A stretch of DNA of 64,000 nucleotides from contig OZ020269.1 of NCBI GenBank assembly GCA_963971225.1, forward strand, positions 92,566,865-92,630,864. Reading direction: 5' to 3'. The stretch is from Melieria omissa. Lineage: Eukaryota > Arthropoda > Insecta > Diptera > Ulidiidae. The notes below the pieces were generated by a model. It was not told the origin of the DNA. It saw nothing but the letters and a program-made list of their open reading frames with translations, and ran no database searches. Below, piece after piece: positions 5,061-62,501 of the stretch. Made by a program: the position numbers and the translations under genes. Position 1 is the stretch's first letter, and every line of letters begins with the position of its first letter.

Positions 5061-5285
5061 CAATTAGCTTATGCAGTGACACTTGCAAGTAATCCCATTC
5101 AGTCCTATTCAGTCCTATTGAGTCTTATTCATTGACCCTATCCCATAGCTCTGTGCGTACCAAGTAAAAAAATACCAAATTAAGGGTCCAAATAATTAGA
5201 CCCTTGTTTTACAGATTAGTGGGTACCAGTAACAATATCCAGTGATCTCATTCCTGACCTTTTCCAGTAACTCTATCCAGTGAAG

Positions 5286-5437
5286 CAGTTCCGCACACGG
5301 GGTTTCATTATGGAGAAATATTTCGTACAACTTTTGAGGCAAGTGTTATTTGGAGGAATATTTGTCACCCAACATATTTTAACAAGCAGATATTTGGGGG
5401 ACTTTGAACTCAAAAAACCCTATTGCGTGCACCACTG
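5286..5437 (-). mobile_element. hAT-like MITE, copy 2, inserted in the minisatellite
   Basis: About 152 bp. The right end reads GTGCACCACTG and the left end CAGTTCCGCACACGGGG, which are imperfect inverted repeats. Reverse-complemented, it shares the 'GTTCAAA..CCCCCAAA' and 'CTCAAAAGTTGTAC' segments with the 57075 copy. The flanks cagtgaag and cagtaaac match at 6 of 8 positions, consistent with an 8-bp target duplication. It lies inside the degenerate array, so it inserted after that array formed. Confidence 0.6.
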
Positions 5438-6295: not shown

Positions 6296-6690
6296 CTAGG
6301 CGGTGAGTATTGAGTGACCTTATCCGGTTACCCTAGTATTCAGTGACCCTATTCGGTGACCCTAGTATTGAGTGACCTTATCCGGTGACCCTAGTATTGA
6401 GTGACCTTATCCGGTGACCCTAGTATTGAGTGACCTTATCCGGTGACTGTAGTATTGAGTGGCCCTATTCGGCGACCCTAGTATTGAGTCACCTTATCCG
6501 GTGACCCTAGTATTGAGTGACCCTAGCATTGAGTGACCTTTTCCGGTGACCCTAGTATTGAGTGACCCTATCCGGTGACTTTAGTATTGAGTGACCTTAT
6601 CCGGTGACCCTAGTATTGAGTGACCCTATCCGGTGATTCTAGCATTGAGTGACTCTATACGGTGATCGTAATATTGAGTGACCCTATCCA
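6296..6690. repeat. 29-bp minisatellite
   Basis: A regular tandem block with unit GTATTGAGTGACCTTATCC + GGTGACCCTA (29 bp), roughly 12-13 copies, several identical or one base apart. It is much more homogeneous than the surrounding 12-15-bp array from whose phrases it is built, which implies a recent local amplification. Confidence 0.85.
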
Positions 6691-6990
6691 GTAACTTAAC
6701 CAGTTATCCTATCCACTGATCTCTAGTTACGCTATCCCGTGAAACTATCCAGTGACCATATCCAGTAAGTCATCCAGTTATTCTATCTACTCACTCAATT
6801 TGATAACTTTATTCATTGACTACATCCAGTTACCAGATCCAGTGATCCGCTCCAGTAATGCTTTCGAGTCGTTACTAACTTTACCTAATAACTCTATCCA
6901 AGGTCAGTATTTAGTATCCCTATCCAACGACCTTATCCAATGTTACTATCCAGAGCTCATAACCAGTGACTCTATGCAGTCCCCGTTCTA

Positions 6991-9460
6991 TTCAGCAACC
7001 CAATGCAGTAACCCAAATTGTTGTAACGAGAAAGTTCGCTACGTTGAACATAATCAGACAACACCGGAGTACTCCTTCAGAACCTGTGTCATCACTTTAC
7101 TCTGACCCTCCGTCGTATATAGTTTTCATTTCAAGGTTGGCGACTCCATTCAGAATCATTACCCAACGTTAACTTTTACAAGATTTAATCTTAGGGAAAC
7201 TTTAACTACATCGATGCTGAATCATAATTCCAACTATTGCACTAATGAGATCATTTCTTTTGACTATTAAATTATCATCTTTCCCACGTGCTTTTCTCTC
7301 TCTCATTTTCCTTTGTCTTGTGTTACATTGTCTTAAAAAGATTGTTTTACTTGTGTTTGTGAAATGTGTTTATAATAAAATATTCTAATGCAATTTTTTT
7401 CTGCTTCGACTTTGTATTATTCCATTACCACTTCAAGGCCTTGCAACACCTTTCAAGTTTGAATGTGCAACGTATTTACACAAAAAAATTCCTCTTAGTT
7501 TAATGTTGTTGTTACTGTTGCTACAATTGCAGTGCACTATCGCATAACAATGGCAGCAATGACAGCCACTAACAAAAACAACAGCAACATTTAAATAAAA
7601 CACCAACAACAATAAAATCAACAAAGGCATCGTAAGAAAAAATGAAATAAAACAGAAAAATAAAACGTAAAGCAAGCGAAATAAAAAGCAATAGGCGTGC
7701 CTTGACAACGCGCACAACAACAACAACAACAACAATATTGTGTGCAACATTGGCCATGCCACAAGTGCGGCAAGCACAGAGCCAACAAGACACAGGAGGC
7801 GGAAGAACGGCGCACTAAAACGCAACGGAAGAGAAAAATTGCAAATACAATAAGAGACATGCAGCAAAGGAAGAAATAAAATCAAATAATAAAGAAGGAA
7901 GCGCCCGAATCGTATCCTGCAGATACATTCGAATGGCTCACAAGCAGACACGCCGCACACGACACATGCGCGCACAATTAAACGCCTCGCTGACTGGCTG
8001 ACTGTCTGCGTGTCTGGCGCCCAGCCCGCAACGCGCTCACGTCGTCATTTGACTATTTGCCATGGCAGATTTTCCAGCGTCTCCTATTATCGCTGCGTGT
8101 ATATGTGTGTTGGTGTGTGTGTGTGTGTGTGTGCGAAGGATATTTGTGTATCTGTAATTGCGGCATTTGTGCCTCGCCCCCTCTAAGCCCCCCTACTCTA
8201 CCTTCTACTTTCCTTAGTACACCCCTCCTCCTCCTCGGTTCATCGCCGCCGCCCCCTCTCGCTGACACGCTGCACTCTTGTAGCTGCTTTGGTTTCTTTG
8301 TGGTATTTTTTATTCACATGCTGCCCGCTCCCTCTCACCTCTGACGCCGTGTCAGCGCCATCACCGGCAGCGTTGTATCTTCCAACGCCCCACTCACCTC
8401 CCTCCACGTCATGACAGTGCCGTGCTCGCGCATTGTGCCAGCTTTGGCACTTTTATTGCCACGGCTCATGGCATAATTAACTAAACAAACGTCATTAGGC
8501 GCGCTCGCGTATGTTGTGCGAATATCTGTGTGGTGTTGTTGTATTTGTATGTTTGTTGTTGTTATTCTATGTTTTATGTTGAACGCGTGTGTGTGTATGT
8601 GGAGTGCGTTTATAGTCCCCGAGGGTTTTGCACAGCTAAAAACCCAATGTATGTAAACATGTATGTGTGCATGTATTAGTCTGTTTGTAGATGCGTTGAA
8701 TGGCGGAGTGAGCGACAGCGATGCAAAGCGAAGAACGAGCCTAAGCGGCATGGGGGACAAATGAATGCAAAGCCGACAACAACTGGAGGTAAATACGACT
8801 CTGGGAGATGGCCGCGACAGATGAACGCGGAAAAGATGAGCCAATGAATAATGTAATGAATAAACTGATGAATGAATAAAAAGGCAAATTGCGGAAGCAA
8901 AGAATGCAATTAAAGTGGCTAAAAGTACGAATGCGTAGTTGGATGAAAACCCCTTGAATGTTAGATCAATTAGTTGAGAGATGTGCGGAAAAGATTTCAA
9001 AGTCTACTTTGAAGATTGAATCAAAAACTTATAAGTTGTATGAAAAATATGTCAAAGAATACTTTTAAGATCGAATGAAAAACTTGAGTTGAGTACTAAG
9101 GGTTGTATGACAAATCTTTTAAAGAATTCTTTAGACTCGTACGGAATCTATTTTGAAGACAACAGTAACAAAAGAAAAAGATAAACGAAAATAGATATTA
9201 AAATTAATTTTCGAACCTATATTGTCAAAGGGTTGTAAAAAAAAACAAATAAGACAAAAATATAATATATATATATATATTATATCTTCCAAAAAAACAG
9301 AAAAGACTAACGCAACCACTTCAAAGACAAACCGATAACTTTTTGAAGACTAAAACCACAACTTGAAATATCAACGGAAACTGTTTTGCAGCAAAAAAAT
9401 ATGAAAGTTCAACGTTAAAATTTATTACTAACAAACAACTTAAGAAACGAACTTGCAATC
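6991..9460. other. Non-coding unique island
   Basis: No gene supported. It contains CAA/AAC runs (about 7710-7735), a (TG)n run at 8115-8132 and an (AT)n run at about 9264-9280. Open frames on the minus strand (7433-7975, 8335-9000) are low-complexity, hydrophobic or Ser/His-rich, and show no domain or splice context. From about 9000 the sequence is A-rich with short internal echoes of 'TTTGAAGA..GAATGAAAAACTT'. The last bases before the hexanucleotide array read TAACCTAACCTA (9461-9472). Confidence 0.5.
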
Positions 9461-9486
9461 TAACCTAACCTAGACCACAACTATCT

Positions 9487-10386
9487 ATGTCTATGTCCAT
9501 GTCTATGTCTATGTCTATGTCTATGTCTATGTCTATGTCTATGTCTATGTCTATGTCTATGTCTATGTCTATGTCTATGTCTATGTCTATGTCTATGTCT
9601 ATGTCTATGTCTATGTCTATGTCTATGTCTATGTCTATGTCTATGTCTATGTCTATGTCTATGTCTATGTCTATGTCTATGTCTATGTCTATGTCTATGT
9701 CTATGTCTATGTCTATGTCTATGTCTATGTCTATGTCTATGTCTATGTCTATGTCTATGTCTATGTCTATGTCTATGTCTATGTCTATGTCTATGTCTAT
9801 GTCTATGTCTATGTCTATGTCTATGTCTATGTCTATGTCTATGTCTATGTCTATGTCTATGTCTATGTCTATGTCTATGTCTATGTCTATGTCTATGTCT
9901 ATGTCTATGTCTATGTCTATGTCTATGTCTATGTCTATGTCTATGTCTATGTCTATGTCTATGTCTATGTCTATGTCTATGTCTATGTCTATGTCTATGT
10001 CTATGTCTATGTCTATGTCTATGTCTATGTCTATGTCTATGTCTATGTCTATGTCTATGTCTATGTCTATGTCTATGTCTATGTCTATGTCTATGTCTAT
10101 GTCTATGTCTATGTCTATGTCTATGTCTATGTCTATGTCTATGTCTATGTCTATGTCTATGTCTATGTCTATGTCTATGTCTATGTCTATGTCTATGTCT
10201 ATGTCTATGTCTATGTCTATGTCTATGTCTATGTCTATGTCTATGTCTATGTCTATGTCTATGTCTATGTCTATGTCTATGTCTATGTCTATGTCTATGT
10301 CTATGTCTATGTCTATGTCTATGTCTATGTCTATGTCTATGTCTATGTCTATGTCTATGTCTATGTCTATGTCTATGTCTATGTCT
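9487..10386. repeat. (ATGTCT)n satellite, 150 units
   Basis: Exactly 900 bp of the hexamer ATGTCT, 150 units, with a single substitution in the second unit (ATGTCC at 9493-9498). Five of the six reading frames are open because the unit is six bases long (Met-Ser, Cys-Leu, Val-Tyr on plus; Asp-Ile and Arg-His on minus). These frames have no start context, splice context or non-repeat domain, so I do not call them genes. The lack of decay points to a very young expansion or active homogenisation. Confidence 0.98.
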
Positions 10387-11487
10387 GACAAAATGACAAA
10401 AAAATAACACATTCGCAATAAAATTAACAACAACAACAACATTTGCCGTCTATTGCACACGAAATGCCAATGGAAATTGAGCTCACATTATGAGTGCTTC
10501 CCGAAGAAGAGATGGTGAGAAAGCAAGCGAGAACACGGAGCCAAGAGGGAACGTATTGAATTTTTGTTGATTCTAATGAAATTCTGCGCGAACATAAGCA
10601 ACACAAAAAGAAGCAGCGGGTGGGCAAAGGAGAGAGAAGAGACGAGAGATGGAACACAGCATTGAAGTGGCACACGACGCTGACTGGGTGGCGAGTAATT
10701 TGTGAAAATTGCGCGCGCAACATGGCTGCAACAAATTTGATTGCGATTGCAATTGCGATCGCGATTAAAAATACAACAACAGCAACAGCAATAACAACAA
10801 CAGCAACAACAACAGAAACAAAATACAACCATTGGCAGTGCAGCAGCGCAACAAATCAATTCAATTAAAAGCGATGCGAATGATTTGGATGCGACCCAAT
10901 TTGCTGTTCAAGTGGAAAGTGGAAATTCAAGTCGCCGCACTGAGAACGAACACCGACCGACAGCTGCAACAATAGCAAAAACATCAAAGATAATGATGAA
11001 GGCAGCAGTGGCACAAGTTGCATGAACTACAAGTGTGCTTGAGAGGCGCAACAGCGGCGGCGACGGCGGCAATAGCGTAAAATTTCGTATTTATTACGCG
11101 CATTAATTGCAAAAGTGTGAGCACATACACACACACACATAAACATGATGAGTTACATTGCACGCGCGCAGGTAGTCGACAATTGTTGCTGACAACACTT
11201 GTAACGGTGGCAACACTGAGAACTATAACGTTGGCAGCAGCACTTCTTGTTGTTCATGTGTCTGTGTCATATAAGCCGCTTGCAGCGTTTTCATGCACAA
11301 GTGCCTCCGTTCTACTCATGGCATAAGCTAAGTGTCTATGTATGTATATGTGTATATGTGTGTGTGTTTGTTGCCTGTTGCGAATAATGCAAGTAAGCGG
11401 CAATAAAAACCAACAAAAGTAAATAGTTTCAAGCAAATGTGACAAATAGCGAAGAATCGAGGAGATAGTAGAATAAAAGGTGGAACA
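10387..11487. other. Non-coding unique island
   Basis: Unique sequence with AAC/CAA runs at about 10425-10440 and 10770-10825, an imperfect palindromic 'GCGATTGCAATTGCGATCGC' at about 10742-10761, and TG/TA microsatellites at about 11337-11370. No coding region, RNA gene or transposon recognised. Confidence 0.5.
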
Positions 11488-11489
11488 TA

Positions 11490-12435
11490 CCTTGTGACCG
11501 AAAAGTTTCCGGAAATTTTAAATAAAACGCAAAATTCTTAATCTTCATCAATATTTATTTTATCTCCTTCAAAATATGCTCCATTAGAAGCGATACACAT
11601 ATGCCAACGTTTCTTCCAATCATCAAAACATTTTTTATAGGCGCTTTCCGGTATGGCTTTGAGTTCCCTCTGCGAATTCTGTTTTACGTCTTCTATGGAT
11701 TCAAAACGCGTTCCTCTGAGTGGTAATTTGAGTTTGGGAAACAGGAAAAAGTCACACGGTGCAAGATCAGGTGAATACGGTGGCTGTTCGATGGTATTTA
11801 TTGAATGTTTGGCCTTAAAATCGTTGATAATGTTGGCTCGGTGCGAGGGAGCATTATCGTCATGAAAAATCCATGAATTATCCTTCCACAATTGAGGCCG
11901 TTTACGGCGGATATTTTCACGCAAACGTCTTAAAACAGTCAAATAACAGTCTTTACCGACTGTTTGTCCTTCAGGGACGAATTCATGATGCACCACACCA
12001 CGAATATCGAAGAAAATAATCAGCATTACCTTGATTTTCGAACGACTTTGGCGTGGTTTTTTCGGTTTCGGCTCGTCTTTTCCTCTCCATTCCGATGATT
12101 GTTGGCTTGTTTGCATGTCGTACTCGTAGACCCATGTCTCGTCACCAGTTATGATGCGTTCCATGAAAGTTGGATCGGAATTGGCACGATCAAGCACGTC
12201 CAAAGAGACCTGTTCACGGTACTCATTTTGAAGAAAATTCTCAACAAAATCGCAACGCACTACTGAGGTGAATTGGTTTGAACAGCTGCCGTAAACAAAC
12301 TGTCTGACAGATCGCGCTCACTTTTGGCATAGTAATTAAGGACAGTGCTACCAACCTACAGAAACTTAAAATATCGAAAAATATACAGCGCGCGAATTTT
12401 CAATGAGAATTTCCGGAAACTTTTCGGTCACAATG
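11490..12435 (-). mobile_element. Internally deleted mariner element (946 bp)
   Basis: Both ends carry a ~28-bp terminal inverted repeat containing TTGTGACCGAAAAGTTTCC, flanked by TA at 11488-11489 and 12436-12437, the Tc1/mariner target. Complete mariners are about 1.3 kb; this copy is about 0.33 kb shorter. The missing length matches loss of the N-terminal helix-turn-helix region of the transposase, since the remaining frame starts just before the catalytic domain. The two repeats differ at few positions, so the copy is not very old. Without its DNA-binding half it could move only with help from a full-length relative. Confidence 0.92.
11538..12260 (-). pseudogene. mariner transposase, catalytic part only (D,D34D)
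   Basis: A 240-codon open frame encodes a mariner DDE transposase catalytic domain. Visible motifs in order: ITGDETW with the first catalytic Asp, SKIKVMLIIFFDIRG, FHDDNAPSH with the second Asp, and YSPDLAPCDFFLF with the third. Exactly 34 residues separate the second and third Asp, the mariner signature. The family's protein is about 345 residues; roughly the first 105-110, containing the paired helix-turn-helix that binds the terminal repeats, are missing. No ATG begins the frame: it opens at GTG in a longer stop-free stretch, and the first Met is FMERIITGDETW, about 33 codons in. There are no stops or frameshifts in the catalytic part. Expected activity: none alone; at most a fragment able to interact with full-length transposase. 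Confidence 0.92.
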
Positions 12436-12439
12436 TAAA

Positions 12440-13344
12440 TGACAAAGATTTACAATAAAACCGTTTTTGAGCAGAAAAGAAAATGAAATACATAAATGAA
12501 GGAAGCGAATAGTAAGAATAAATAACAGAATGAAGTAGTAAATGGAAAAGTGAACAGGTGAATAGAGAAGAATAAAGATTAAAGCAATTTACTAATCAGG
12601 ATTCAAGAGAATAAAGAAGCAAAAAAAAACCATGAAAAAGAAAACTAACAAAAAGATAATGAAAAGAAAAATAATATAAATGGAGGAAGCTCAAAAGTAA
12701 TGAAAAGAAGAGATGAATTGTATGAATTACTAAATCTTAAAAGGAAAGGGAGAAGTAAAACAGATATGAAATCACCAAAGGGAAGTGTGAAGAACAAGAA
12801 AGTATAAAGAAATAATCGACAAAGTCTAATAAAACAATGACCGAAAAAAATTAAAAACGAAATAAAATAAAAAAAATATATGAGAGAAAAAAGGCAAGAA
12901 TTTATACTTGAAGTAGAAGAAGAAGAGGTTGAGGGAGAGGGGGAAGAAGAAGAAAAAATAGAAAGAATATAAAAACAAAGAAAAGGAAAAGTAAAGAAAA
13001 AAAGAAAGAAAAAAAGGAACAGGAAAAAGGAAAGGAAAACGAAAACGAAAGGAAAGGAAAAGAGGAGGAGAGGGAAGAATATGAAGAACAGGAAGAAGAG
13101 GATAGGGATAAGGATGAAGAACAAGAGGAAGGGAAGAGAAAAAGAAAAAGGAAATGGAAAAGAAAGAAAGCAAGGGGAAGAATATGAAGAACAGGAAGAG
13201 GAGGATAAGGATGAAGAGGAAGAGGTAAAGGGAAAGGAAAACAAAAAGAAAAACGAAAACGAAAACGAGAGGAAGAGAGAGAGGGAGAATATGATGAACA
13301 GGAAGAGGAGGATAAGGATGTTGAGGAAGAGAAAGAGGAAGAGG
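12440..13344. repeat. Purine-rich (A/G on plus) low-complexity tract
   Basis: Nearly all A and G on the plus strand, strongest at 12900-13350, with GAAGAGGAA/AAAGGAAAA phrases and weak ~60-110-bp echoes ('GAAGAATATGAAGAACAGGA' recurs). Open frames on either strand (Lys/Glu/Arg-rich on plus, Ser/Phe/Leu-rich on minus) simply reflect the absence of T on one strand. No gene. Confidence 0.8.
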
Positions 13345-13590
13345 AAAGGGGAGGAAGGAACCAGTTTGACTTCCTTACGATGCCAAGTAGGCTTTGAATA
13401 ATTACATCAGCCAGATCCCGTCGGGGAAAAAGATGACGATACCATCTCCGCCAGACGGACCAGGTGTTGAAATCCTGTAAGCATTTCAAATCCCGAGTTG
13501 AGACCACAAAGCCTGGGCAAAAGTAACCAAATGCCCTTTTCCGATGTGACAGAATTGGATTTACCTCCAGTCGTACACATGAGCCATGTT
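13345..13590 (-). mobile_element. Decayed LINE 3' end (minus)
   Basis: On the minus strand a frame reads ...DLADVIIQSLLGIVRKSNWFL, closely matching the '(D)(I/V)xxLLxFIxxxxWF' ending of RNase H-type LINE ORF2 proteins seen also at 3614-3800. Upstream, in another frame, 'HLVTFAQALWS' fits the 'HLLCxCPALWS' knuckle region with both cysteines lost. At least one frameshift separates the two. The 5' part is missing. Alternative: chance similarity, less likely because the two pieces are in the right order and spacing. Confidence 0.5.
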
Positions 13591-13599
13591 ATACAAAGG

Positions 13600-13955
13600 C
13601 AATTGGCGACCAAAATATTATCAAGAAGCTACGGAGATGAGAATGCAATGGAATCGATTGAGTAGTTTCTATGCCACTGTGCATCACTAGAGGAACGACG
13701 GGTTTGGCCTATTGAAATCAGGTTATTCGGTGGATTCGCGATAAAAGCTGATTACGGATCTACACAATTTCCTCGCCAAAATCAAATGGTTTACAAAAGA
13801 TTCTGTCTGGATCTATAAAACAGGAACAGAGACAGGGAACCCAACAAATAGGGTGTATGGTGTACCGGATCTTAAGTGGAGGAAATCACAATGGACTTAA
13901 CAGAATCACCGAGTGAAAGTGCTTGTCTCGAATACAACTTATGTAACCTAATCTA
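13600..13955 (+). mobile_element. Decayed LINE 3' end (plus) with CCTAA-like tail
   Basis: On the plus strand the frame around 13620-13720 reads SRSYGDENAMESIE-stop-FLCHCASLEERR, which is the ORF2 zinc-knuckle region (expected C-x2-C...H...C) with the second Cys changed to Tyr and a His codon changed to TAG. Downstream coding is broken. The 3' end carries 'CACAATGGACTTAACAG' and a TAACCTAATCTAA tail at about 13943-13955. It sits head-to-head with the minus-strand LINE remnant at 13345-13590. Confidence 0.55.
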
Positions 13956-14215
13956 AGTTCAATGGTTCATTTATCGAAAGATTCAAATTTTTCGTATCAG
14001 CAAATATGGTTTTTATTTCCAAAAAGTTTAATAAGAAGCACGAAAGGAGAAATTTCCATGAGGACAAAATAAATGCAATCATAAAATAGAATATTTGATG
14101 GAAATATTTTTTTTTAATATTTTAATTATCTCTTATGACTGATAGAAGTCTAAGTTCCTTCATTATACGTTTTTAAATAATAAAAAAAATTAATGAAAAA
14201 AGCATTTTCACTTAC
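13956..14215 (-). other. Intron immediately downstream of the Ig exon
   Basis: AT-rich intronic sequence. The minus-strand 5' splice site GTAAGT lies at its start (GT is the complement of 14214-14215). No other feature is seen. Confidence 0.7.
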
Positions 14216-14581
14216 AGATCACAGTGAGTTTGGCGTTGGCGCGTATGGCCGAATTCAGTCGGGCCGGTCCCACCTGGCACTGGTACTCGGCATCGTCGTT
14301 GATGGACGCGTTCGAGATGCGCAAATTGTAGACGCCCTGCTTGCGATCACCCAGCACCGAGTAGCGCGGAAAGCCGGGTATCACTGCCAAAAAGCCGAGC
14401 GCGAAACCGTCCTTTGTCCACTGGACGGCGCCCGCTTGATTGGCGACCTCGCAGCGCATCATTGCCTCGGCACCCTCCAGCACCTGTAAATCGTGCGGTG
14501 TGACGCGAAATTTTTGCTGTTGTGCCATACAACTGGCGGGCAAGGCGACGGCTACAAGCAGCAGCAACAACAGCGTCAATG
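14216..14581 (-). CDS. sns: Internal exon: first Ig domain of an SNS/Hibris-like nephrin-family receptor
   Basis: This 366-bp minus-strand exon encodes 121 full codons plus 2 nt at the start and 1 nt at the end, so both introns are phase 1, the usual arrangement for Ig-domain exons. The acceptor is a pyrimidine tract ending TTTTAG just above 14581; the donor is T|GTAAGT below 14216. Residues 1-17 are the hydrophobic end of a signal peptide (LTLLLLLLVAVALPASC). Residues 24-121 are a V/I-type Ig domain with Cys43 (MRCEV), Trp54 (VQWTKDGF), DDAEYQC with Cys101, and an N-glycosylation site at Asn90 (NAS). The stretch around VIPGFPRYSVLGDRKQG is strongly characteristic of Drosophila Sticks-and-stones and Hibris, transmembrane partners of Kirre/Rst in myoblast fusion, nephrocyte slit diaphragms and eye cell sorting. 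I favour sns from memory; hbs is the main alternative. The initiating Met must lie in an upstream exon at a higher coordinate. GC-rich coding contrasts sharply with its AT-rich flanks. Confidence 0.88.
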
Positions 14582-16200
14582 CTAAAATGAAGAGAAAACG
14601 AGAGAACGGCAAAAATGAGAACGTGTGAAAAAAGTAAAAAAGAAAAATTAAAAAAATATAGGTATATATTTTTTATGCTTTTTGGAGCAAAATGTTTTCA
14701 GAGTTGCTTTTCTTTTAGTTTTATTAAGTTTCATTTGTTTTCATTATATTTTTCTTAAGCTGTTTTTTTGCAGCTGTAAGGCAAAACTCTCTGTATGTGT
14801 GTGTGTGTGTGTGTGTGTGTTTGAAAATGTTGGAAATACACTGCGGGCAATTGAAAAAACCACACGCGTCAGTGGATTAAACATTTTTAAAAGTGCGCTT
14901 ATAACTTCAACATGCCACGAGCACAACGTGCAACATGGCCGCGCAGACATGGTTGACGGCAATTGTTGGCAAAACAGCGGGTCACCAGCAGTTGAGTCGA
15001 GTGGCGTCGCCAAAGGACACCGAGCGCTGGTACGCTGGACGTGAATGAGAACAGCAATGAAGACTTAATTAATTTTCACACCACACAAACACATACAAAC
15101 ACACATATACAACTTATATGACAGAGGAGGCATGGGGCGCGCGCTTTACTCCGCAGGAATTAGCAATGGAAAAATTGTGGTCCAATGCTGCAGGCCACCG
15201 AAACGCTAACGAATGAAAGCGACGCGATGGCATACGAAAAATTGTCAAATGAAAATTTGGAAAAGGCAACAACAAAAGAAAAAAATGACAATAGAAAAGC
15301 AAAAAGGACGCAGGCTGAAAGATGGCGTTTTCTATTAAAAATGTGACGTGAATCATACAACGAACACACGCAAACACACACACACTAATAGAAATAAGGA
15401 CACGCACACCAACACTGACACACAGCTGGCCACACACGCACACAAAGCAAATCACGAACGCAAACACCGACAGAACCGGAGCCGCCTTGGTCGGCTCTAA
15501 AAACTCGGAACCCCTTAGAAAAGAAATGAGTCGCCTAAAAGAGTAAAGCGAACGCCTGCCAGACAGTTGTGTTGAGAAAACAGTGGCAACAAAAAATGTT
15601 CGGCTGCTTTGGAAAAAAGCAAATAATTAAAGGAAACTGCAAACGACATTGGCACCAGCGGCCAACTTAGTCTAAATCGCTTTTCGTATATCATTCTCCC
15701 TCTTTCTGCCTCTCGCGCTGTGCCTGTCAGCCGCTTTCACGCTCCACTACTGCGTGGCCAACAGCAAACCGAAGCGTGCGCCAAACAAAACGAAAGTTTT
15801 TAATGAAAAGCAAACAAAGCGCAGCGTGCAGCAGCGAACAGGAGAGGAGACGAAGATGGAGAAGGGCACAGTGGCGTTTTGTCGTTTTGTTAGCGCCTCG
15901 AATGGACATTGCCCAGTTTGGAGCGTAGAACTGGCGCATGTTGCGTCAGGGGAGAAATAAAGCAGCACCAAAACAACAAAAAACAACAACAACAAAGGTA
16001 ACAAAAACAACAAAAGCATTAGTAACAACAAAAACAACAGCAACAACAAAAGCATTAGCAACAACAGAAACAACAGCAACAACGTATTTGAAAGCAATGG
16101 AATTAAAAATCATTTCAAACGCTCTCCAAAGTAAACAAAATAAAAGCTACGAAATGATAAAATAACAATTTAAAAATCTAAAAAAAAAAAACAAAAATCA
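14582..16200. other. Intronic unique island
   Basis: Immediately upstream of the Ig exon on its strand, so intronic by position. Unique sequence with a (TG)n run at about 14795-14821, (CA)n runs at about 15370-15385 and CAA/ACA runs at 15965-16082. No first exon with Met and donor was convincingly found. Open frames are simple-repeat by-products. Confidence 0.55.
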
Positions 16201-16789
16201 CCCAAAAAAATTTAGAAAAAAAGTATATATTTATACAAAAAATAAGGGGGCAAAAAAAACAAAACAAAACAGCAGCAATTAAAAATTGTCCCCAACAAAA
16301 AACGTTTTTAAGCCTTTGTTGTGCACTTGGTGGCAATTTAAAAATGAATAGTTGGAAGGGGTAGAAAGAGGAAAGGCAAAAGAAAGAAAATTATTTGTTT
16401 CCTCACGCTAAGTTGTTACTCTTCAAACACTATTTGGTCTCCTGGAGAGGAAAAACCAAAGAGAGCAACAAAAGAGGCGGGAGTCAATAAAAGATTGAAA
16501 ACAAAAGGAAAAGAAGCAGAAGCAAAGGAATCAAGTGATTTTAAAGGAAAGAAAAACCAAAAAACCAATAGAGAAGAAAAGGATAAGAGGAAGAAGAGGA
16601 AGAAGTATGGAAATAAATTTATATGAAATGAATGAAAGTCAAAAGAAAAGCAAGTTTCGTAGCAGAACAAAGTTGTGAAGTTGAAAGTTGTTAAGAAGAA
16701 AGAAAAAAAATTAAAAAAAAAAATTAAGCCAACAAAGATGAGGAATTTTGGCGGCAAAACAAAAAAGTTGTAATTCTGCAGTCGATATC
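16201..16789. repeat. Purine-rich low-complexity tract
   Basis: A/G-rich plus strand (GAAAAGAAAG, AAGGAAAAG phrases) leading into the 303-bp array. No gene; the minus-strand Phe/Leu/Ser-rich frame is compositional. Confidence 0.7.
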
Positions 16790-17820
16790 GAAAACAAGAA
16801 AGAAAAAGTTAAGAGAACAGGAAAGAATAGAACAGCAGAAAGGAAAACAGGAAAGCAAAAGTTAAGTGAATGAATGCGTTGACAATAAGAAAAAGAAACT
16901 GGCACAGGAACTCAAAGAAGGTTTTTTTGCAAATTTTAAGTCATACTTAGGCAAGAAGAATACACAGAAAAAAAGAGGGAAGTCAACGGGGACAAAAAAT
17001 GTTTGCAACAGCACAAAGAAAGTTCTTATTTTTCAAAGACTAATTTAAAAATAGAAAAAGAAAACTAAGGGGGAGAGAAAAGAGACAGCAATGGTAAAGA
17101 ATGGAAAGAGAAAGTTAAGAGAGCAGGGAAAGAACAGAACAGAAAACAGTAATGATAAAGTTAAGAGAATGAAAGAGATGACAATAAGAAAATAAACTGC
17201 CACAGGAACTCTAAGAAAGTTGTTTTTTTTCAAATTTGAAGTCATACTTAGGCGAGAAAAATACCCAAAAAAAGATGGAAATCAACGGAGACAAGAAATT
17301 TTTGCAAAAGCACAAAGAAAGTTCTTATTTTTCAAAGACTAATTTAAAAATAGAAAAAGAAAACTAAGGGGGAGAGAAAAAAGACAGCAATGGTAAAGAA
17401 TTGAAAGAGAAAGTTAAGAGAGCAGGAAAGAACAGAACAGAAGACCAAAAAACAGGTAAGAAAAAGTTAAGAGAATGAAAGAGATGACAATAAGAAAAAG
17501 AATTTGCCACAGGTACTCAAAAAAGTTGTTTTTTTCAAATTTGAAGTCATACTTAGGCAAGAAGAATACACAAAAAAATGAGGAAAGTCAACAGGGACAA
17601 GAAATTTTCGCAACAGCATAAAAAAAGTTCTTATCTTCAAAGAATAATTTTTAAGAAAAACAGGAAAACTAAGAAAGAGAGAAAGAAGACAGCAATGGTA
17701 AACGATTTTTGTATCAAAATGCAAGAAACTTAAGTTCTTTAAAGCCAAAGTTGTAGGCAGAAGATAAAAACGAAGAGAAAGAAAGAGAAAACCATACGAA
17801 AAGGAATATGGCACAGTAAT
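16790..17820. repeat. ~303-bp purine-rich tandem array
   Basis: Three clear copies of a unit marked by 'TCATACTTAGGCAAGAAGAA', starting at about 16941, 17242 and 17547 (spacing 301 and 305 bp). Each copy also carries 'AAAGTTCTTATTTTTCAAAG', 'GACAGCAATGGTAAA' and 'GAGAATGAAAGAGATGACAA'. Copies differ by substitutions and small indels. The plus strand is heavily A/G. Confidence 0.85.
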
Positions 17821-18400
17821 TCAAAGAAAATGTTTATCAATCAAAGGTAAAAATAATACAAAGAGAAAGACAGGACAATAAGGATCAACAACAATCATAG
17901 TAAACTTTTACAGTAAGATAAAGAGACTGCTTAATCTTTGAAGTTGAATTTACAAGCAAGAAAGGAAAACTAAAGAGGAGGGGAAAAAGACAAAAATTGT
18001 TAATGATTTTCACTCAAGGACATACAAATATTTCCTTTTTCTTTAAAGACCTTCGTCGTAGGCAGTAAGTTATAACTAAGGAAATAGAGAGAAGTAACAG
18101 GAAAAAGAAAAATCAACGACGAAGCAATAAGACTAAAGAGAAAAAAAAGATAAAAGAATATTTTTTAAAAATTTTACCACTCATAGTCAAGATCGAAGAC
18201 AAGGAAAAAACGAAGAAAAAGAGACTAAAGTCAACAAGGGTAAAGCATTCATGCAGCAGGATAAAGGAAATTGTCATTCTTTAAAGATGAAGCACCAGAA
18301 AGAAGACCTAAGCAGTGAATGAAGACAACAACATTCATTTCATGAATAACTTTCATTCTTCGAACTAACTTCGGCATAAACGAGAAAGAAAAACTGTAAA
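17821..18400. repeat. Degenerate purine-rich array, transition
   Basis: More diverged copies of the same A/G-rich vocabulary (AAGAAAGGAAAACTAA, 'AGTAACAGGAAAAAGAAAAA'); the period is no longer clear. No gene. Confidence 0.6.
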
Positions 18401-19310
18401 AGAACAAAAAAATGAGACAGCAATAATAAGAAACTCACACATTAGAATCTGCAGCTCAAAGAAAGTTATTTCTAATCTAATAATGGAAAAGGACTCTCAC
18501 GACAGGAAATGAAAAATTGTAGTTGTACAAACAAACCTAAACGTAGACGAGGAAGGAAAACACTAAAATATGAAAAAAAGAGAAAACAGAAAAAAAAGAA
18601 ACTCAGACAGTAGAATCTTACTTTCAAAGAAAGTTGTTTCTAATCATAGTCGAGAAAGAGGCAGAAAAATAAGACTTAGACAACAAAAGGAAAACGAGCA
18701 AAGTTATCTAATTTTTCAGCAGAGTTTTAATATTTGAATGCCGGCTTTCTAAACCTTTATAAATTTGTTAAACTAAGAAATAACATAAAAAGACAATGGA
18801 AAAGGACTTTCACGACGGGAGATGAAAAATTTGAGTTGTTCAAACAAACCTTAACGTAGACGAGAAAAAAACACCGAATATAAGAATAGAAGAGAAAACA
18901 GAAAAAATAATAACTCACACAGTAGAATCTTACACTCAAAGAAAGATGTTTCTAATCATAGTTGAGGAAGAGACCGGAAAAATAAAATCAAGACAACAAA
19001 AGAAAAACGAATAAACTTAAGGAATTTTTCAGCAGATTTCAGCAGTTTCATTTAAAAATTTTAATACCGATTTTCTAAAACTCGATAATTTCATTTGGCT
19101 TAGAAGAAGTGAAGGAAGACAACAAAGGGAAAAGCCTTTCTCAACAGGAGATGAACAATTTTCGTTCTTCAAACAAACCTCGACATAGACAAGAAAGGAA
19201 AACCCTAACAGAGCAAAAGATAAGACAACAATAGCAACAACCAGAAGCAAACAATAGACTCACACAGTTAAAAATTGCTACTAAAAGAAAGTTGTTACTA
19301 ATCATAGTCG
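18401..19310. repeat. Purine-rich tandem array of 'CACACAGTAGAATCTTACA' units
   Basis: Units recur with the ordered markers 'ACTCACACAGTAGAATC', 'CTCAAAGAAAGTTGTTTC' and 'TAATCATAGTCGAG' at about 18435, 18600, 18910 and 19258; spacing alternates near 165 and 310-350 bp, suggesting a higher-order unit. The last copy is split by the SINE at 19311-19635, and the neighbouring copies preserve the unsplit sequence. Confidence 0.8.
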
Positions 19311-19635
19311 GCAGCCACCGTAGCTCAGCTGGCTAGTGCCTTGGGCCGCGAGTCAAGACTCCGCGAGTTCAATACTCCGTTGCGTTAACACCGAAAAAAA
19401 AGAAAAACAACAATTTTTCTTTCGGCGGCTGTCCTCTCAGCAGGAAGTGGCAAACCTCTGAGAGTAAAAATTGCCAATGAAAAAGCTCCCGACTCGCCGT
19501 TTGGAATTGGCATACAACTGTAGGTCCCTTCCAACATTGTAAAAACATTCGCACGCACAACACGGATGGTTGCGGGTAGTTCGGCCTTAGTCTCGTAATC
19601 GGGCTGTCGTGCCAATCAAGAAGAAGAAGAAGAAG
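19311..19635 (+). mobile_element. tRNA-derived SINE, family 1, copy A
   Basis: A 325-bp element bounded by a perfect 11-bp target duplication, AATCATAGTCG (19300-19310 and 19636-19646). The head is tRNA-like: A box TAGCTCAGCTGG at 19321-19332 and B box GTTCAATAC at 19367-19375. The body contains a core, GGAATTGGCATACAACTG..., at 19503-19532, and the 3' end is an (AAG/GAA)n tail. It would be transcribed by RNA polymerase III and mobilised by a partner LINE. It inserted into a unit of the purine-rich array. A second copy lies at 62175-62491. Confidence 0.93.
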
Positions 19636-19699
19636 AATCATAGTCGAGATTGTAACTAGAAAGCAAAACCAAGAAAAATAAAGAAGAGCCAGAAAGACC

Positions 19700-19816
19700 A
19701 CGGTTTTTTTAGCTGATTAAAATTTTTTGATTTATAGGTTACGACAGTTAAGTGTGGGTTTCCGCACCAGAGATCCTAGGTTCGATTCCTAGTTCAACTA
19801 CGTCTATCGCTATCCT
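19700..19816 (+). other. tRNA-like T-arm fragment
   Basis: At about 19777-19794 the sequence CTAGGTTCGATTCCTAG forms a perfect 5-bp T-stem with a TTCGATT loop, preceded by a small hairpin GTGTGG/CCGCAC. No acceptor stem or A box is clear, so it is not a functional tRNA gene. It may be a relic SINE head. Confidence 0.35.
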
Positions 19817-19977
19817 CAGTAGCGGATTCAGGGGGCGGGGGTTTGGGGGTGGAAACCACCCGAAATATTAGGATCGACTTTAAAACTACATATAATCAAA
19901 AGCAAATTTTTTGGCATTTTATGAATATTAAAAAATTACTTCTTGAATCCAAAAATATTTTCCTGAACCCGCCCCTG
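19817..19977 (+). mobile_element. hAT-like MITE, diverged subfamily
   Basis: 161 bp with inverted ends CAGTAGCGGATTCAGG and, at the right end, the complement of CAGGGGCGGGTTCAGG. Flanks gctatcct/actattct match at 6 of 8 positions. The interior differs from the other copies but keeps a G-run near the left end and 'GGTGGAAACCACCCGAAAT'. Non-coding. Confidence 0.55.
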
Positions 19978-22400
19978 ACTATTCTTATCAAGCAGATAAG
20001 AGTAAAATTACAGTCGGCATATCTGGATTAACTCAAATAATTCGAACTTATTCAATTTAGCCAAAAGCTATGAGGTCAATAGAAGCCTCAGGGCTTACGA
20101 ACAATTTTGATTTTCAATCCATTGAAGCATAAACGAAAAAGCTGAATAAAATCCAAAATCCTTTCAACGTTGATTTTTAATTCGTTTATGTGCAATTTCA
20201 TTGTTGTTGTTGTATTTTGTTTTAATTTTTAATCGCTTTTACCAACTCAAAGTTACTCAACAGCGGCCACCACATTGATGCCCGAACGCTTTGTTCAGTG
20301 CATTCAATTATGGCTTTTCATTCTCTCAAATTTCACACACACACACACACACACACATATATACACACATGCACCAGCACAGCGATTTATTTTAGACGCA
20401 CCCAATGGGCTGAATGGTCGCCGTTCGCGTTCACACGCCAATTAGATGTTTCAGACGTGTGGCGGCGGCGACGGCGGCGTCAACAGGCCACGTGTGGCAT
20501 TGTTGTAATTTGCACAAAACATGAATCAGCAGCGCAGCAGCACTGTGCACCCACTGTGTGCGGCGCTCAAGCTTTGACTTGACCCTTCCTCCCCCCCGCA
20601 CTCGAGTCTACACTCGCACAGCTTTCAAGTGTTTCCCACACGGCTTTGTTGCATGATTTGGCTAATTTTTTTTCCAGCTTTGGTCACTGTCGTTTTAACT
20701 GCTGCTTACTTTTTTGACCACTCGTTTTTGGTTGTTGTTGTTATTGATGTTGTTGTTGTAATGATTGTTGTGGCTTATTGGTTGTTGTTTTAAAAATATT
20801 TTTGTTCCTCCTCTCACACATGCAGCGTTCATTCATTCATGACTGAATTGCTTTTGAGTGATTCCTTTTGTTGTTGTTGTTGTTGGCTTGAAATTTTGTT
20901 GTTATTGTAAGCTATTTTGCTGTGGGATTTTTGTTGTTGTTTAATATCGTTGGGTAGTTATTGTTGTTTTATAATTTTGGCTGCCATTGTTGGGTGCTTT
21001 GTTGTTGCTGTGTTTACACGCAGCTAATTCGCCCCAAGCGGCAGCATTACATTCCTCTTCGCCTTCCTGGCGCTCCTAATTTTTTGTCTCCAACCACTGA
21101 AATATGGGCTTTTACAAATTTGTTGGCCGCATTTGGCGTTTGGCGTTTATTGTAAAAGTGCGGGTTAGGTGACATTGCGGCGAAGATGCCAACACACAAA
21201 CATAGCTCCCACCCATAAGCAGCCAATTGTGGCTCGTTGTATATGTGTCTGTGTGTGTGTGTGTGTGCCATTAATTTGCGTGAATTTTCGTTTTTGCCTT
21301 CTTGGCCGAAAATCAATTTGCCGCAGCCACAATCGCTGCCACTGCTGCCACGGTGGGCGCACACGGCGTCAGAGGCGGAGCCAGTAGTCGTCAGTGGCTG
21401 CCATCGACACGGCCACACACACACACACACTCACACACAATCGGCCTGGGCACAGTCAATGTTGGCGCAGCATAATGGCGATTTTCGGTTGCTGTCGCAG
21501 CCGCCGCTTGGCGTTTGGCGCTGTCAGCGGGGCGTTGCAAACTATTCCATTACCAACGGCCGGACAAACGGGACAGTTGACTGTGCACGTGCTTTGCATG
21601 CTGGCGCGGATTCGAATCAGCGCCATTGCTGCATTTTATTGATGCCACTGCAGTTTATGTGCCAAAACGTAACAATGGACGGCAGCAATGGCGTCGACAC
21701 TCGGTCCTCTGTCCAGTGCAGCGACAGCGACGACGGCGGCAATGTTTCCGGTTGCGCCTCCCAGCCTTAGCCAAAGCCAGAAAAATGTCCCGACAGCAGT
21801 AGCAACAACAACAACAAAATATCAACTAAAAATACCCAAAACATGGTCAGAGACAGCGACTCCATATTGCTGCGAGCAAATTGCTGTGCAATAAGCCAAC
21901 AACAATGATGATGATAACAATAATAACAACAGCAACAACAACAACAACAATAGAGGCAGGCAGCATAAATAGCAAATACAAAATGGCCAAAATATTATGG
22001 CCAACGGATTTGGCTTAATTTTTTGGCCACCACACCATTGCCGCACTGTCCGACTGGCCAGTCGAACCAAGCCGAGCAGAGCCGTGTCGTCTAGCGTTGC
22101 CAGCTGGCGTGGCGTCGACCTAAACGTCGCATTGGTTTGAGGCTGTCTGCGGCACATAATGTGGACAATTTTTTGTTTGTATTTGTATTCTTCTTCTTCT
22201 TTTTGGTTGCTCGCTGAAAAAATGCAGCAATTATGGCGCATTTTTGGGGATAAGGCATTCAGTCGAGGTGGACTGTCATGTAGGTCAGCGAGGAGGCAGC
22301 AAGATGATGGGAGAGAAAAGTTCGATGTTGTGGTGGGCTGGACTTGCAACATGCTGCACTGTAATCAAGACAGAAATGACAGTAGGTAGGCCAGAGGCGT
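19978..22400. other. Non-coding unique island
   Basis: Unique, GC-richer sequence from about 20230 to 22140, with (CA)n at 20336-20356 and 21415-21437, (TG)n at 21247-21266, GTT/TTG runs at 20725-20760 and 20870-20885, and CAA/AAC runs at 21805-21825 and 21925-21950. Short open frames on both strands lack domains. It could hold regulatory sequence or a small non-coding exon; nothing in the bases proves it. Confidence 0.5.
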
Positions 22401-24829
22401 TTATGATGAGTGAACAAAAGGAAATAGAAAAACATGGAGGACTGCATTGAATAATCGAAAAGCTTTAAGTAGGAGTTGAAGCAAGATTTGGCATTTTTTT
22501 CATTTTCTTTTATAAGATGTTCCAATATTTGTCGTTGCCTGAGCAAACGATTGTCGTATGTGCTATGAAATTCAATGGAACATAGGACATTCCTTTTCTG
22601 AAGTGACGTTGTGTATGATTTGAATTTTATGGCATTTTTTCCTGTTCAAGTGGCATTTTGTTTCTATTCAAATTTACAGTTGTAATTCTTCCGATTACAC
22701 TGCACACCAAAATCCAATTTTTATTAAATAACAAGGTTCTGACAACGAATTCTAGTAGAGGGCACCAAAACAAAATATACGTGTATCGGCGTTTTGAAAG
22801 TTTATGTCTGAATTTTTTTAGGGGGGTCAAAGTTTTACCCTTTTTGCACATTTTTATGGTGAATCGGCATACGTAACCTCACATTTTAGGTATATTTAGT
22901 GTTCAGCAATTTGATGTAAAATGCTACGAAAAACATTTTTGTGGAACATTTTAACCCTGTAACTCCTATTTGTATGGGTCAATTTGACACTTTTTTCTAA
23001 AATGCCAAAAATGTCCCATAAAACAAGACTTTTTAAGGACAAAATGTACCACGAAAATGTTCGCCATGAAATTCTACTATAGGTCTCTGAATACATCAAA
23101 GCTCAGAAATTAACTTTAACTCCAGAATTAAGCCAAAACTGAAAATGTGTTTAGGTGTTTATTTCGTACTTATTCCAAATTGGTTCTTAAATTTGATTTT
23201 GTTGTGCAGTGTTATTAGGCATACAGTTCTACTTGAAGGAAGGACGCTTTGTCATTGTTAAAAATAATAGTTTTATTGGAGCAAGAATTTCCAAACGGAA
23301 TCATCTTCCGAAGGTCCAATGTCAACTGATACAAAGATCGTGTGATTGAATGACAGTGGCGCACACAGAGAAGGGTGGGGTGGAAGGTTGGAAATTCAAA
23401 CCCCCAAAAATTAAAATTTTCTGGTACAAAATATGGTTTCAAATGGAATCGAGCTAGAATGTTGTACGCAAAACTGCCCCCAAAATAAAATCCTCGCGAT
23501 TCGATGTGATTTCTTTCTTTGGGGTTTTGTAAAATCGTATGTCTGTGCGAAACTATAAACAATCCCTGAGCTCAAGGATGAGGACCAATGCAACGTTGAG
23601 ATAGAGACATCTTTGTCACAGTGTCATCAAAACAGAATTACAAAAAGACTTCTACTTGCTTTCAGGACAGAGTTTTATGCAGGAATAAACATTTTTGAAA
23701 AACAAAACATAAGGATCTTCAAATTAAAAGTCCTTAAATAAAGTGTTTTTGTCATTGAACAAACATATTTCAACACTAATTTAACCCATTAGAGCATAAC
23801 GTTCGATAAATTGGACGCCAAAAAAATTGTTATTTTAAAAGTTATATACACTTTACTCAAGTTTTATACTTTTAAAACAGTAGTTTAATATTTTAACTTT
23901 ATGCACTAATGGGTTAATAACTTACAATGCAATAACTTAAACTTGAGTTAAACTCTTGAACCTTCCAAACTTGCTAATCTTTTGTATAGACTCAACTTTT
24001 GAACCATCTGAATAGATATTACAGTTTGTTATTGTCAGCACTCTTTTGTTGACTCTTTCGGTGTCTGTACACCACAGACCACAATTTTTTAACATATAGT
24101 CAAAGTCATAAGAACTTTCATAACAACATTATTCTTACAACGTCTGAAAAGTTTGGTCCTTCGGTACATAACTATGAACTATGTCTGGATATTTCAAGTC
24201 TCTTGCAGCAGATTGTAACCCGATAACGGGTTGTTATGGTAATTTATCTTCAGCTTAACAACAAAAACTTAACAATAACAATAACAATAAAAATCCACTA
24301 AGAATCGACAAAATCCTCTAACATAAAATACAAATTACCTAAACTTTCTCCTAAACAATTCTTCCTCCTAAAAATTCTCCTCTAAACGTCAAGAATCTCC
24401 TAAATCTAGGAGGAAATCTCCTGATCTGGCAACACTGGCTAAGGCTGTCTGTGTCATTAGAACCGCTAAAGCTCTTCAACACTATGGGCTCTTTAGCTCT
24501 CTCAATTCTTCAAGCTTCCGCATCGTTTGAAAAGACCGAACATTCAGACTTTTACTTTCCTAAAGTCTCAAAACAGTCTGGATAGTCTGAACATAAGGAT
24601 CGTCCAGATATTTAGAGCTGCTAGAAATCTTAGGCTCACATGGTTAAATAGAGCTTTGTGAATCCTTTAGAATTAGATGTATGAGATTTTTTATCTTAAT
24701 AATACCGAAAACCCCAACTAAATCGCGTTTCAGTTCTCTCCGATCATTTACATGGTTCGAACTGTTTGATTGTCTAAGCTTTTATTATTATTGATGAGGA
24801 TAATGGACTGCGACCTCTAAAACTATCAG
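22401..24829. other. AT-rich stretch, no gene seen
   Basis: No supported gene. It contains one MITE (23354-23492). Around 23760-23960 two halves echo each other ('AACCCATTAGAGCATAACG', 'TATGCACTAATGGGTTAATA'), perhaps a decayed inverted repeat. The rest is unremarkable. Confidence 0.45.
23354..23492 (+). mobile_element. hAT-like MITE, right end truncated
   Basis: Starts with an intact left end CAGTGGCGCACACAG and keeps the family middle (AATTCAAACCCCC, 'ACAAAATATGGTTTCAAATGG', GTTGTACGCAAAACTG, AAAATCCT). The right inverted repeat is replaced after AAATCCTCGCG, so this copy is terminally damaged and no target duplication is visible. Confidence 0.55.
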
Positions 24830-25111
24830 TGAGTCCAGTATCCGAGAGGAATTTTAGTGTGTTTCCTAAGCCTCTGAATACCCAGTCTGAACCTGACTGT
24901 TGTCTCGTCCCTTCTCATTAGGATAAACGAAGCTCCTTTTCCCAAACCAAAAACACTTTCTAGGCCGACAAAGGGTGTGGAAGCTCACCCGTCGCTTGCC
25001 AGCTCGTCGGCCCGTCCTTTCCCTTCAATGCCGGTGTGGCCCGGAACCCAAAGCTTGTTTAAACTTAGCTCGTCTACGAGCTGCTGGGACTCTTTAAAAA
25101 TCTCGCGTGGT
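24830..25111 (-). mobile_element. LINE fragment: RNase H domain (minus)
   Basis: The minus strand at about 25075-24980 reads LVDELSLNKLWVPGHTGIEG then GRADELA, the diagnostic end of a LINE-encoded RNase H: WVPGH with the conserved His, and the final catalytic Asp in (R)ADELA. It continues in frame past one stop into PFVGLE, the usual 'PFxGPEP' segment. The Asn of GNE has become Lys-Gly. Upstream RNase H motifs and RT are absent. The SINE at 25121-25487 adjoins its 5' side. Confidence 0.75.
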
Positions 25112-25120
25112 TAGGCAGAG

Positions 25121-25487
25121 TCTGCCTGCCTCGATAGTTTAGTGGTTAGCGTGTTGGCTTATCATACTGAGGTCCCAGGTTCGAATCCCAGCTCGGATTG
25201 ATGAAACTTTCATATACTTCTATTGCGCTCTTGGACTCTCTTGGCTCTTGCAGACAATGGAAAAATGTCCAAGTGTGAAAGGAAACCTACCAACCGCCAT
25301 TTGGATTCGGCATTAAACTGTAGGTCTCCTTCCCCCATCCGCTTCCAATCCGTGTTGTAACACATGTGCGAAAAAACAGTGTTGCATACACATTTCAAAA
25401 ACCGTTCAAATATGTAGTATCCCAATGGACCGTTTAGGTCTGCGAGAGTGTCTCCTACGGAGGCAGCCACCATAACCTAACCAAACC
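25121..25487 (+). mobile_element. tRNA-derived SINE, family 2, copy A
   Basis: 367 bp flanked by a 9-bp target duplication TAGGCAGAG (25112-25120 and 25488-25496). The tRNA-like head resembles tRNA-Asp: GCCTCGATAGTTTAGTGG with A box at 25135-25145, a TTATCAT anticodon-like loop, and B box GGTTCGAATCC at 25178-25188. The core GGATTCGGCATTAAACTG... lies at 25303-25333. A later segment 'AAAAAACAGTGTTGCATAC' is shared with the copy at 45662. The tail is ATAACCTAACCAAACC, similar to LINE tails in this window. Confidence 0.92.
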
Positions 25488-25496
25488 TAGGCAGAG

Positions 25497-26640
25497 ACTT
25501 GTATTTAGAACTTTTAAGTTGTTAGACTAATAGAAATGTTAAGCCTGCAAAATGCCGAGATTTTGGTACCCAAATACTAAACTCCTAACTTAACCCTTTC
25601 GGGACTATTGAGATAATACGTCCCAGCAAGTTTTTAATGCCCCTCAAAACAATTATTCAAATCTTACGACCCACGCAAAATATTTTTTTGATTTCGGTGT
25701 TCCCGCACAAAGGATGATTTCAGAATTTGTGAGCATTCAATTTAAATTTTTAACCCCAAAATTCATAGAATGATATTTTTACTGAGAGTATTTTGGATTT
25801 CAAAACTGAACTCCCTCCCGAAAGGGTTGAAGATAGTTCAAACATGTTGGCCATTGGAATATTTCAAAGTGTTGGGACTCTCAGGTCATATGCCTAGTCT
25901 GGACCTATTTGGTTCAAATATCTCCAAACTTAAGGTCGACTTGTATGTTTCGAGCCTTTTTGTCTTTCTTTGTACTTAGAACATTGAAATGTTCAGGCCA
26001 ACAGGATACCATAGCCAACAGAATACTTCAAACTCAAACGCAGTACGGACATGTGGATCATCCAACTATTCCAAAGCCCAGGACTATAGGATCGTCTGCA
26101 TAGTTTAAGCTGTTAACACTGTCGTTCGCTTCAGATTCCTATAACTTCTGAACCAATTTGAATTTGATTCTGCATAGGCCGCCCAATTCAGCCTTCAAAC
26201 AAACCATGCAATTAGTCAAAATGGCTTGAACTCTCGAAGCATCTCCACTCTCCACATTCCTTGGAGTCTTTGCTACTCTTAATTCCTCTTTCTTCTGAAA
26301 CTTGTTGAAATACCAACCACCAGGCCTCTTAGATCTATTGGACTACTCTGGGTTTATAACAGATTCGAATATTCTATTCGAATATTGAACAAAAAAAAAA
26401 CCTTTAATGAAAACTTGACCAACCAACTAGTTGTTCAACCTCGAGTTGCCATGCAAAACATGATTGAAATCATAAATACAAAGGCTTATTCATAATTTAA
26501 ATGTTTTCCCATATACAAACAAAAAGGTCATGCAATCTCGGGTTAAACACATTCAATCAAGTTTGCCAAGAGTGTTAATGAAAAAAGTTTGTTCATATTC
26601 TTGAAGTGATTTCTGTGCGGAAGCCACCCCCACCCGCATG
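25497..26640. other. No gene seen
   Basis: AT-rich sequence. Weak echoes of an 'AGGATCGTC..TAGTTTAAGCTGTTA' phrase recur here and at 24590-24660, hinting at a very old tandem or dispersed repeat. No coding evidence. Confidence 0.4.
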
Positions 26641-45652: not shown

Positions 45653-45661
45653 GGTACCTGG

Positions 45662-45948: not shown

Positions 45949-45957
45949 GGTACCTGG

Positions 45958-62491: not shown

Positions 62492-62501
62492 TACGTCCAT
62501 C

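Follow-up and report, generated by a model that had tools for sequence, protein, structure and literature searches.

Short interspersed elements (SINEs) that share a central domain, those of insects included, are a known kind of SINE. In the superfamilies built on a highly conserved domain (HCD), dissimilar heads and tails surround the conserved segment, which measures about 120 bp in the V superfamily (PMC8010984 and PMC6887750, each cited in part). Nine HCDs are counted in the cited part of PMC6887750, and that of PMC8010984 names CORE, V, Deu, Nin, Ceph, Inv, Pln, Snail and Meta. It has long been asked why unrelated SINEs retain a common middle, and module or tail exchange and host benefit have been proposed (PMC6887750, in part). 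Here we describe two SINE families in a 64,000-nucleotide stretch of the genome of the ulidiid fly Melieria omissa (assembly GCA_963971225.1, contig OZ020269.1, forward-strand positions 92,566,865 to 92,630,864), referred to hereafter as the window. Family 1 (F1) and family 2 (F2) carry dissimilar heads and tails around one domain and therefore have the known HCD-SINE architecture; the comparison with those superfamilies is one of architecture only.

The insect systems considered here are compared by description. HaSE1 and HaSE2 of Helicoverpa armigera are likewise two tRNA-derived families that share a central domain, of 62 bp, and their 3' parts differ (an RTE long interspersed element (LINE) tail versus a mariner-derived one), as do those of F1 and F2 (PMC3272025, in part). 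The heads of HaSE1 and HaSE2 are 95.7% and their domains 96.8% alike (PMC3272025, in part), whereas the F1 and F2 heads differ and their domains are 67-90% identical. PxSE1 and PxSE2 of Plutella xylostella likewise have a common body region, of 45 bp, which in the cited part of PMC8010984 the authors regard as distinct from the nine known domains; unlike F1 and F2, these two also share their heads.

A shared central domain in two SINE families

Four SINEs are present in the window, each flanked by a target site duplication (TSD) of 9-12 bp and without coding capacity (longest frames 88, 61, 88 and 64 residues). Two are full F1 copies with (AAG)n tails, both of the subfamily F1A described below: one on the plus strand at 19311-19635 (11-bp TSD, 19300-19310 and 19636-19646) and one on the minus strand at 62175-62491 (10-bp TSD, 62492-62501 and 62165-62174). 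The F2 copies are an old, degenerate element on the plus strand at 25124-25487, whose TSD is identical at 11 of 12 bp (25112-25123 and 25488-25499), and a minus-strand element at 45662-45948 that is missing the domain's 5' half (9-bp TSD, 45949-45957 and 45653-45661). The original prediction had placed SINEs at these four positions, with ends that proved correct within a few bases, and its description of the tails, AAG triplets in F1 and CCTAA/CAA-like sequence in F2, holds.

Comparisons beyond the window drew on a sample of 347,260 bases from 34 sources: 26 coordinate-placed 10-kb stretches, the window itself and seven 3.3-kb F1 loci, designated here by L numbers. The assembly measures 490 Mb, with contigs C1 to C4 of 156, 128, 110 and 79 Mb; 20 of the 10-kb stretches lie on C1 and 6 on C2 and C3. 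A genome search with an F1 query scored 40 of 3290 first-look candidates.

A core pattern derived from the four window copies matches all of them with 0-2 mismatches (19503-19527 and 25303-25327 on the plus strand, 45821-45845 and 62288-62312 on the minus strand) and had no occurrence in 100 dinucleotide shuffles; the core is present in every copy where it had been predicted. Local alignments of the full copies across families scored 30-54. Three of the four cross-family pairs outscored all 1000 shuffles, and the score of the fourth (the 62-kb and 45-kb copies) was reached by 3 of 1000.

The shared stretch had been put at about 30 bp, which is too short: by profile and by structure-aware model, the two families share a central domain that measures about 100-110 bp. 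Its length is concealed in the window by the degeneracy of the 25-kb F2 copy and by the missing 5' half in the 45-kb one. The best preserved F2 copy is that of L033, where the domain includes CACTCTTGGCAGGCAATGGCAAAAACTCCAAGTGTG...GCCGTTCGGATTCGGCTTTAAACTGTAGGTCC and is longer than 30 bp. A profile made solely from three F2 copies matched F1 copies, mostly at positions ~105-214, with E values from 3e-12 to 3e-5. A structure-aware model drew on nine F1 sequences, which included both window copies, and on a single F2 sequence (L033). The domain of the 19-kb copy lies at 19430-19538 on the plus strand, enclosing the core at 19503-19532; the F2 profile matched this copy at 19424-19533 (E 3.2e-9), and the model gave the domain 129 bits, the copy being part of the model by construction. 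In the 62-kb copy the domain occupies 62277-62384 on the minus strand, with the 5' arm of its first hairpin gone; the F2 profile gave E 9.6e-8 and the model, which again contains it by construction, 104 bits. The 25-kb F2 copy stands outside the model, which matched its domain at 25241-25338 on the plus strand, around the core at 25303-25333, with 50 bits (E 2.3e-10). What is left of the domain in the 45-kb copy is its 3' part at 45810-45849 on the minus strand (core 45815-45845); a profile of the domain found it at E 9.6e-5 and the structure-aware model at E 0.63 only, and thus did not rescue it. A further weak match to the model at 23012-23097 on the plus strand (20.7 bits; E 0.009, a rough value) is probably chance or a very old relic.

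Copy alignments, profile and model thus bear out the claim of a common central segment in two SINE families with dissimilar heads and tails. The expectation that the core would be conserved above the body was borne out in part. Between the consensuses of the two F1 subfamilies the domain exceeds the rest of the element. The core is only somewhat above the remainder of the domain: identity of the two F1 consensuses to one F2 copy was 90% in the core versus 78% elsewhere in the domain, and 86% versus 67%. Within F2 the excess is weak.

Searches for the domain in other collections gave little. The core had no match in prokaryote contigs, and a looser core pattern had 9 matches in viral contigs, none of them relevant, with similarity never extending beyond 20-26 nt. 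A protein-database probe from an F1 reading frame returned no candidate. Among the paper texts listed for core-like letters nothing was relevant; a literature search on fruit-fly SINEs yielded no paper, and other literature searches turned up none pointing to this domain.

Heads, tails and copy numbers

Family 1 comprises at least two subfamilies. F1A, with its (AAG)n tail, has a clear consensus from 28 distinct copies out of 30 rows, L001 and L009 being duplicates of other rows. F1T has TAA-, ATT- or A/T-rich tails, and three of its four sampled copies are 98-99% identical to the consensus built from those four (89% for L038). In 25-column windows the two consensuses are 88-100% identical over the domain (window starts 111-206). 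Across most of the head and the spacer (starts 13-90) the figure is 32-68%, with 88% at the extreme 5' end and 76% at start 101; the tail stands at 72-92% (starts 218-278). Most F1 copies fetched are 96-99% identical to their consensus, and 21 of 33 filtered full-length copies are flanked by exact repeats of 8 nt or more, compared to 3% of 500 mismatched flank pairs. One F1T copy (L030:4134-4353, minus strand) ends straight after the core in (ATT)n. Since it stops there with a 7-nt TSD, the 3' edge of the domain can serve as an element end, and this one copy fits an exchange of tails at that edge.

The copies of family 2 are old, with about 75-83% identity to one another once the core is left aside. 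The original prediction gave both families tRNA-like heads of different kinds, and this stood for F2. At its default threshold ARAGORN called a tRNA-Glu in two of six F2 heads, those of L033 and of the 45-kb copy (45871-45942, minus strand; Rfam tRNA 30 bits, gathering score 29), and in none of 800 shuffles; the four other F2 heads gave no tRNA at that threshold. The F1A and F1T heads both failed it. With the threshold lowered to 50%, all eight heads of both families passed, but so did 233 of 800 shuffles; for the two F1 heads, 50 and 37 of 200 of their shuffles passed. Because shuffles also pass, the case for a tRNA origin of F1 is made by box-A- and box-B-like letters recognised by eye.

The 3' parts of the families differ. 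Over its last ~75 bp F2 resembles the 3' untranslated regions (UTRs) of related LINEs from this genome, found in L033 (C-terminal frame 1977-2432, UTR from 2433), L038 (frame 4048-4491) and L039. The F2-like UTR of L038 reads GTGGTAYCACAACGGGCC...CCTAAGTG...GCCACC.TAACCTAACC. In the 25-kb copy the LINE-like part spans 25379-25486 on the plus strand and scores 50 against the L038 UTR, while the best of 500 mononucleotide shuffles scored 29. All six F2 tails tested exceeded 500 such shuffles against L038; five of six did so against L033, the sixth being reached twice, and two of six against L039. In a separate run of 1000 shuffles against the L033 UTR, one of five tails was reached once. TAACC repeats inflate these scores, although the alignment between L038 and the 45-kb copy, over 41 columns, is free of them. 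Neither of two F1 tails exceeded all shuffles, their scores being reached by 399 and 12 of 500 against L038, 443 and 54 against L033, and 215 and 356 against L039. Since the tails differ and only that of F2 resembles LINE UTRs here, neither family simply amounts to the other one fitted with a different head.

The C-termini of these LINEs are homologous (L033 and L038, E 9e-32; each to L039, E 1e-22 and 3e-14). The L039 element has a long open frame of 1028 residues with reverse transcriptase and RNase H domains (L039:6135-9221, plus strand) and TAACC repeats at its 3' end, and is possibly a recently active LINE. By Pfam alone, the L033 and L038 frames gave only sub-threshold zinc-finger and RNase H matches. 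All three presumably belong to the I/LOA/R1 group.

Within the 26 blind stretches (260 kb) the F1 domain occurred seven times (L029, L030, L038, L039, L041, L044 and L061), and further F1 remnants were a tail in L036 and an old relic with a tail-only match in L062. Family 2 occurred four times (L030, L033, L037 and L047), with the domain in just one; a 26-bp head match in L044 and weak tail pieces were not counted. Crude scaling to 490 Mb gives about 13,000 F1 domains (Poisson 95% about 5,000-27,000) and about 7,500 F2 elements (2,000-19,000). In L061 the match covers the domain only and looks like an F1 remnant interrupted by another element; an inverted-repeat element with ends like ACACCGGCACACAAAAAAAA (L061:8160-8470) has apparently inserted there. 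At L036:6898-6931 (minus strand), 34 nt of the F1 3' end with a long (AAG)n tail lie behind unrelated sequence; the piece could be a 5'-truncated SINE or the end of the LINE partner of F1.

A proposed folding of the domain RNA and the alternatives

On the aligned copies the domain can be drawn as a first hairpin, with the conserved loop C(A/T)GG(A/C)AATGGCAAA, a second hairpin (GCCG/CGGC), a stretch around AAACTGTAGGTCC and a third hairpin just 3' of that stretch. The stem of the first is CTCTCAG/CTGAGAG in F1 and CACTCTTGG/CCAAGTGTG in F2 (8 of 9 pairs), around the same loop. The third, post-core stem is CCAACC/GGTTGG in F1A and CCACCCG/CGGGTGG in F1T, and in F2 it forms 19 of 19 pairs (one of them G-U) in the 45-kb copy and 13 of 14 in L033. 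In a few stem pairs both sides differ between families or subfamilies while the loops stay alike. In an alignment of nine sequences (A2), 86.2% of cells were paired compared to 80.5% in shuffles, seven cells were changed on both sides and the covariation score was 0.163; none of 500 shuffles reached any of these values, although relatedness among sequences can beat shuffles even without structure. When the partners were slid by 1-3 columns, pairing fell to 22-46%. That the domain acts as a folded RNA is the reading we favour; it comes from few events in aligned sequence, and is offered as a suggestion and not a proof.

We consider it probable that both families are SINEs built of interchangeable parts around one homologous domain of ~100-110 nt. 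The TSDs, a tRNA-like head that is firm for F2, the common domain and a 3' part that is LINE-like or of another kind are consistent with mobilisation of SINEs by LINEs. RNA polymerase III would transcribe the element from the tRNA-like head, which in F1 is tRNA-like by eye only. The reverse transcriptase of a LINE would then take up the SINE RNA by way of its 3' part, F2 presumably relying on a LINE akin to those in L033, L038 and L039 and F1 on some other LINE. The folded domain would be retained for its aid to retroposition while heads and tails were exchanged around it.

Several results weigh against this reading. On the two more robust A2 measures the signal was weak: four pairs changed on both sides, a count reached by 18 of 500 shuffles, and 220 of 500 reached its nine further pair types. 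One of those four pairs sits in the third hairpin where F2 is mis-registered. About three events are independent: in F2 two pairs of the first hairpin, and between the F1A and F1T subfamilies a single pair of the post-core one. When RNAalifold was run on a 5'-truncated alignment (A1), it found not one compensatory pair, and its covariation term was positive. Minimum-energy folds of whole elements (F1 and the 25-kb F2 copy, without a shuffle control) pair the core GTAGGT with an upstream CCTAY and thus differ from the fold scored in A2. Two F2 copies lack the entire domain, with different deletion junctions (L037:3056-3227, minus strand; L047:9480-9657, plus strand), which counts against its strict necessity, and the 45-kb copy lacks half of it. 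The core excess within F2 is weak and not significant (Fisher p 0.055, 0.59 and 0.052 for three non-independent pairs). The F1 heads gave no tRNA call at the default threshold, and a LINE partner for the F1 tail was not found in the 347-kb sample. Finally, the F1A consensus is biased since it was made from top-scoring copies (all but the 62-kb window copy), and that of F1T rests on four sample copies (L030, L038, L039 and L044).

Some of these results would also be expected if a single ancestral SINE had its head and tail replaced in one lineage and its middle was merely left in place, free of constraint. The F2 copies without the domain, the weak core excess in F2, the few covariation events and the two of five A2 measures that are not, or barely, above shuffles all favour such plain common descent. 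Against it, the heads of F1A and F1T stand at 32-68% identity and their domains at 88-100%, and the loops have been preserved even though some stem pairs are altered on both sides. We regard it as rather unlikely. A domain that is a fossil LINE segment, left from an earlier partnership and taken for example from either end of an RTE- or Vingi-type element, is a possible but doubtful alternative. Kojima reportedly proposed in 2018 that LINEs supply the middle bodies of SINEs, and the L030 copy that ends right after the core allows for such an origin; the domain may also be loosely like the 3' ends of Bov-B/RTE-type elements, which is a lead only. The domain matches followed up in the sample all belonged to F1 or F2 elements, LINEs not having been searched systematically. 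A minus-strand LINE in L033 was read as RTE-like (weak RVT_1 match, E 0.011), and the core was not seen in ~1.1 kb of its 3' flank; a core at the 3' end of RTE-like LINEs was set aside on the flank of this one element, the only such LINE read.

Chimeric SINEs are described in insects (HaSE3; PMC3272025, in part), and one family could be a recent recombinant carrying the body of the other. Identity between the F1 and F2 domains is 67-78% outside the core and 86-90% inside it, compared to 96-99% between most fetched F1 copies and their consensus; part of this divergence is due to the age of the single F2 copy compared, and a recent recombinant is disfavoured by it and seems to us improbable. Chance or convergence, with cores drawn for example from tRNA or low-complexity sequence, has in its favour the one cross-family pair whose score 3 of 1000 shuffles reached. 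It is rejected by the copy-pair shuffles, by the absence of the core pattern from shuffled sequence and by profile E values down to 3e-12 over ~110 positions, and we give it almost no weight.

Other features of the window and significance

Outside the SINEs, the window holds a mariner-type transposase frame at 11538-12317 on the minus strand (Transposase_1 and DDE_3) and an exon-like frame with immunoglobulin domains at 14208-14672 on the minus strand, which may encode an insect Roughest/Kirre-type protein. The RNase H part of a probable LINE lies at 40324-40953 on the plus strand. A short tandem repeat of ~0.9 kb at 9465-10396 has long, repetitive open frames on either strand, and a second short tandem repeat array at 57694-58163 also has long repetitive frames (NQIKSNQIKS...).

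Higher flies have an abundant SINE, with a TATATA tail, whose body presumably resembles the F1 domain throughout and differs in its hairpin stems; this is a lead only, and a protein-database probe made from its translation gave no candidate. If the resemblance is real, the domain occurs widely among flies and is not new.

Two families and no fewer than two subfamilies share the domain in a single genome here, which also has a likely LINE source for one of the tails and young-looking F1 copies. Because families, subfamilies, LINE source, young copies and stem changes occur together in it, the structural explanation can be tested there. The few stem changes hint that the RNA fold is what is kept. 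We suggest, tentatively, that the domain may be a selected folded RNA module, which holds on to its loops and base pairs through exchanges of heads, of tails and even of LINE partners around it, and that it could be common to fly SINEs. If this is true, it would be an HCD that owes its conservation to RNA structure.

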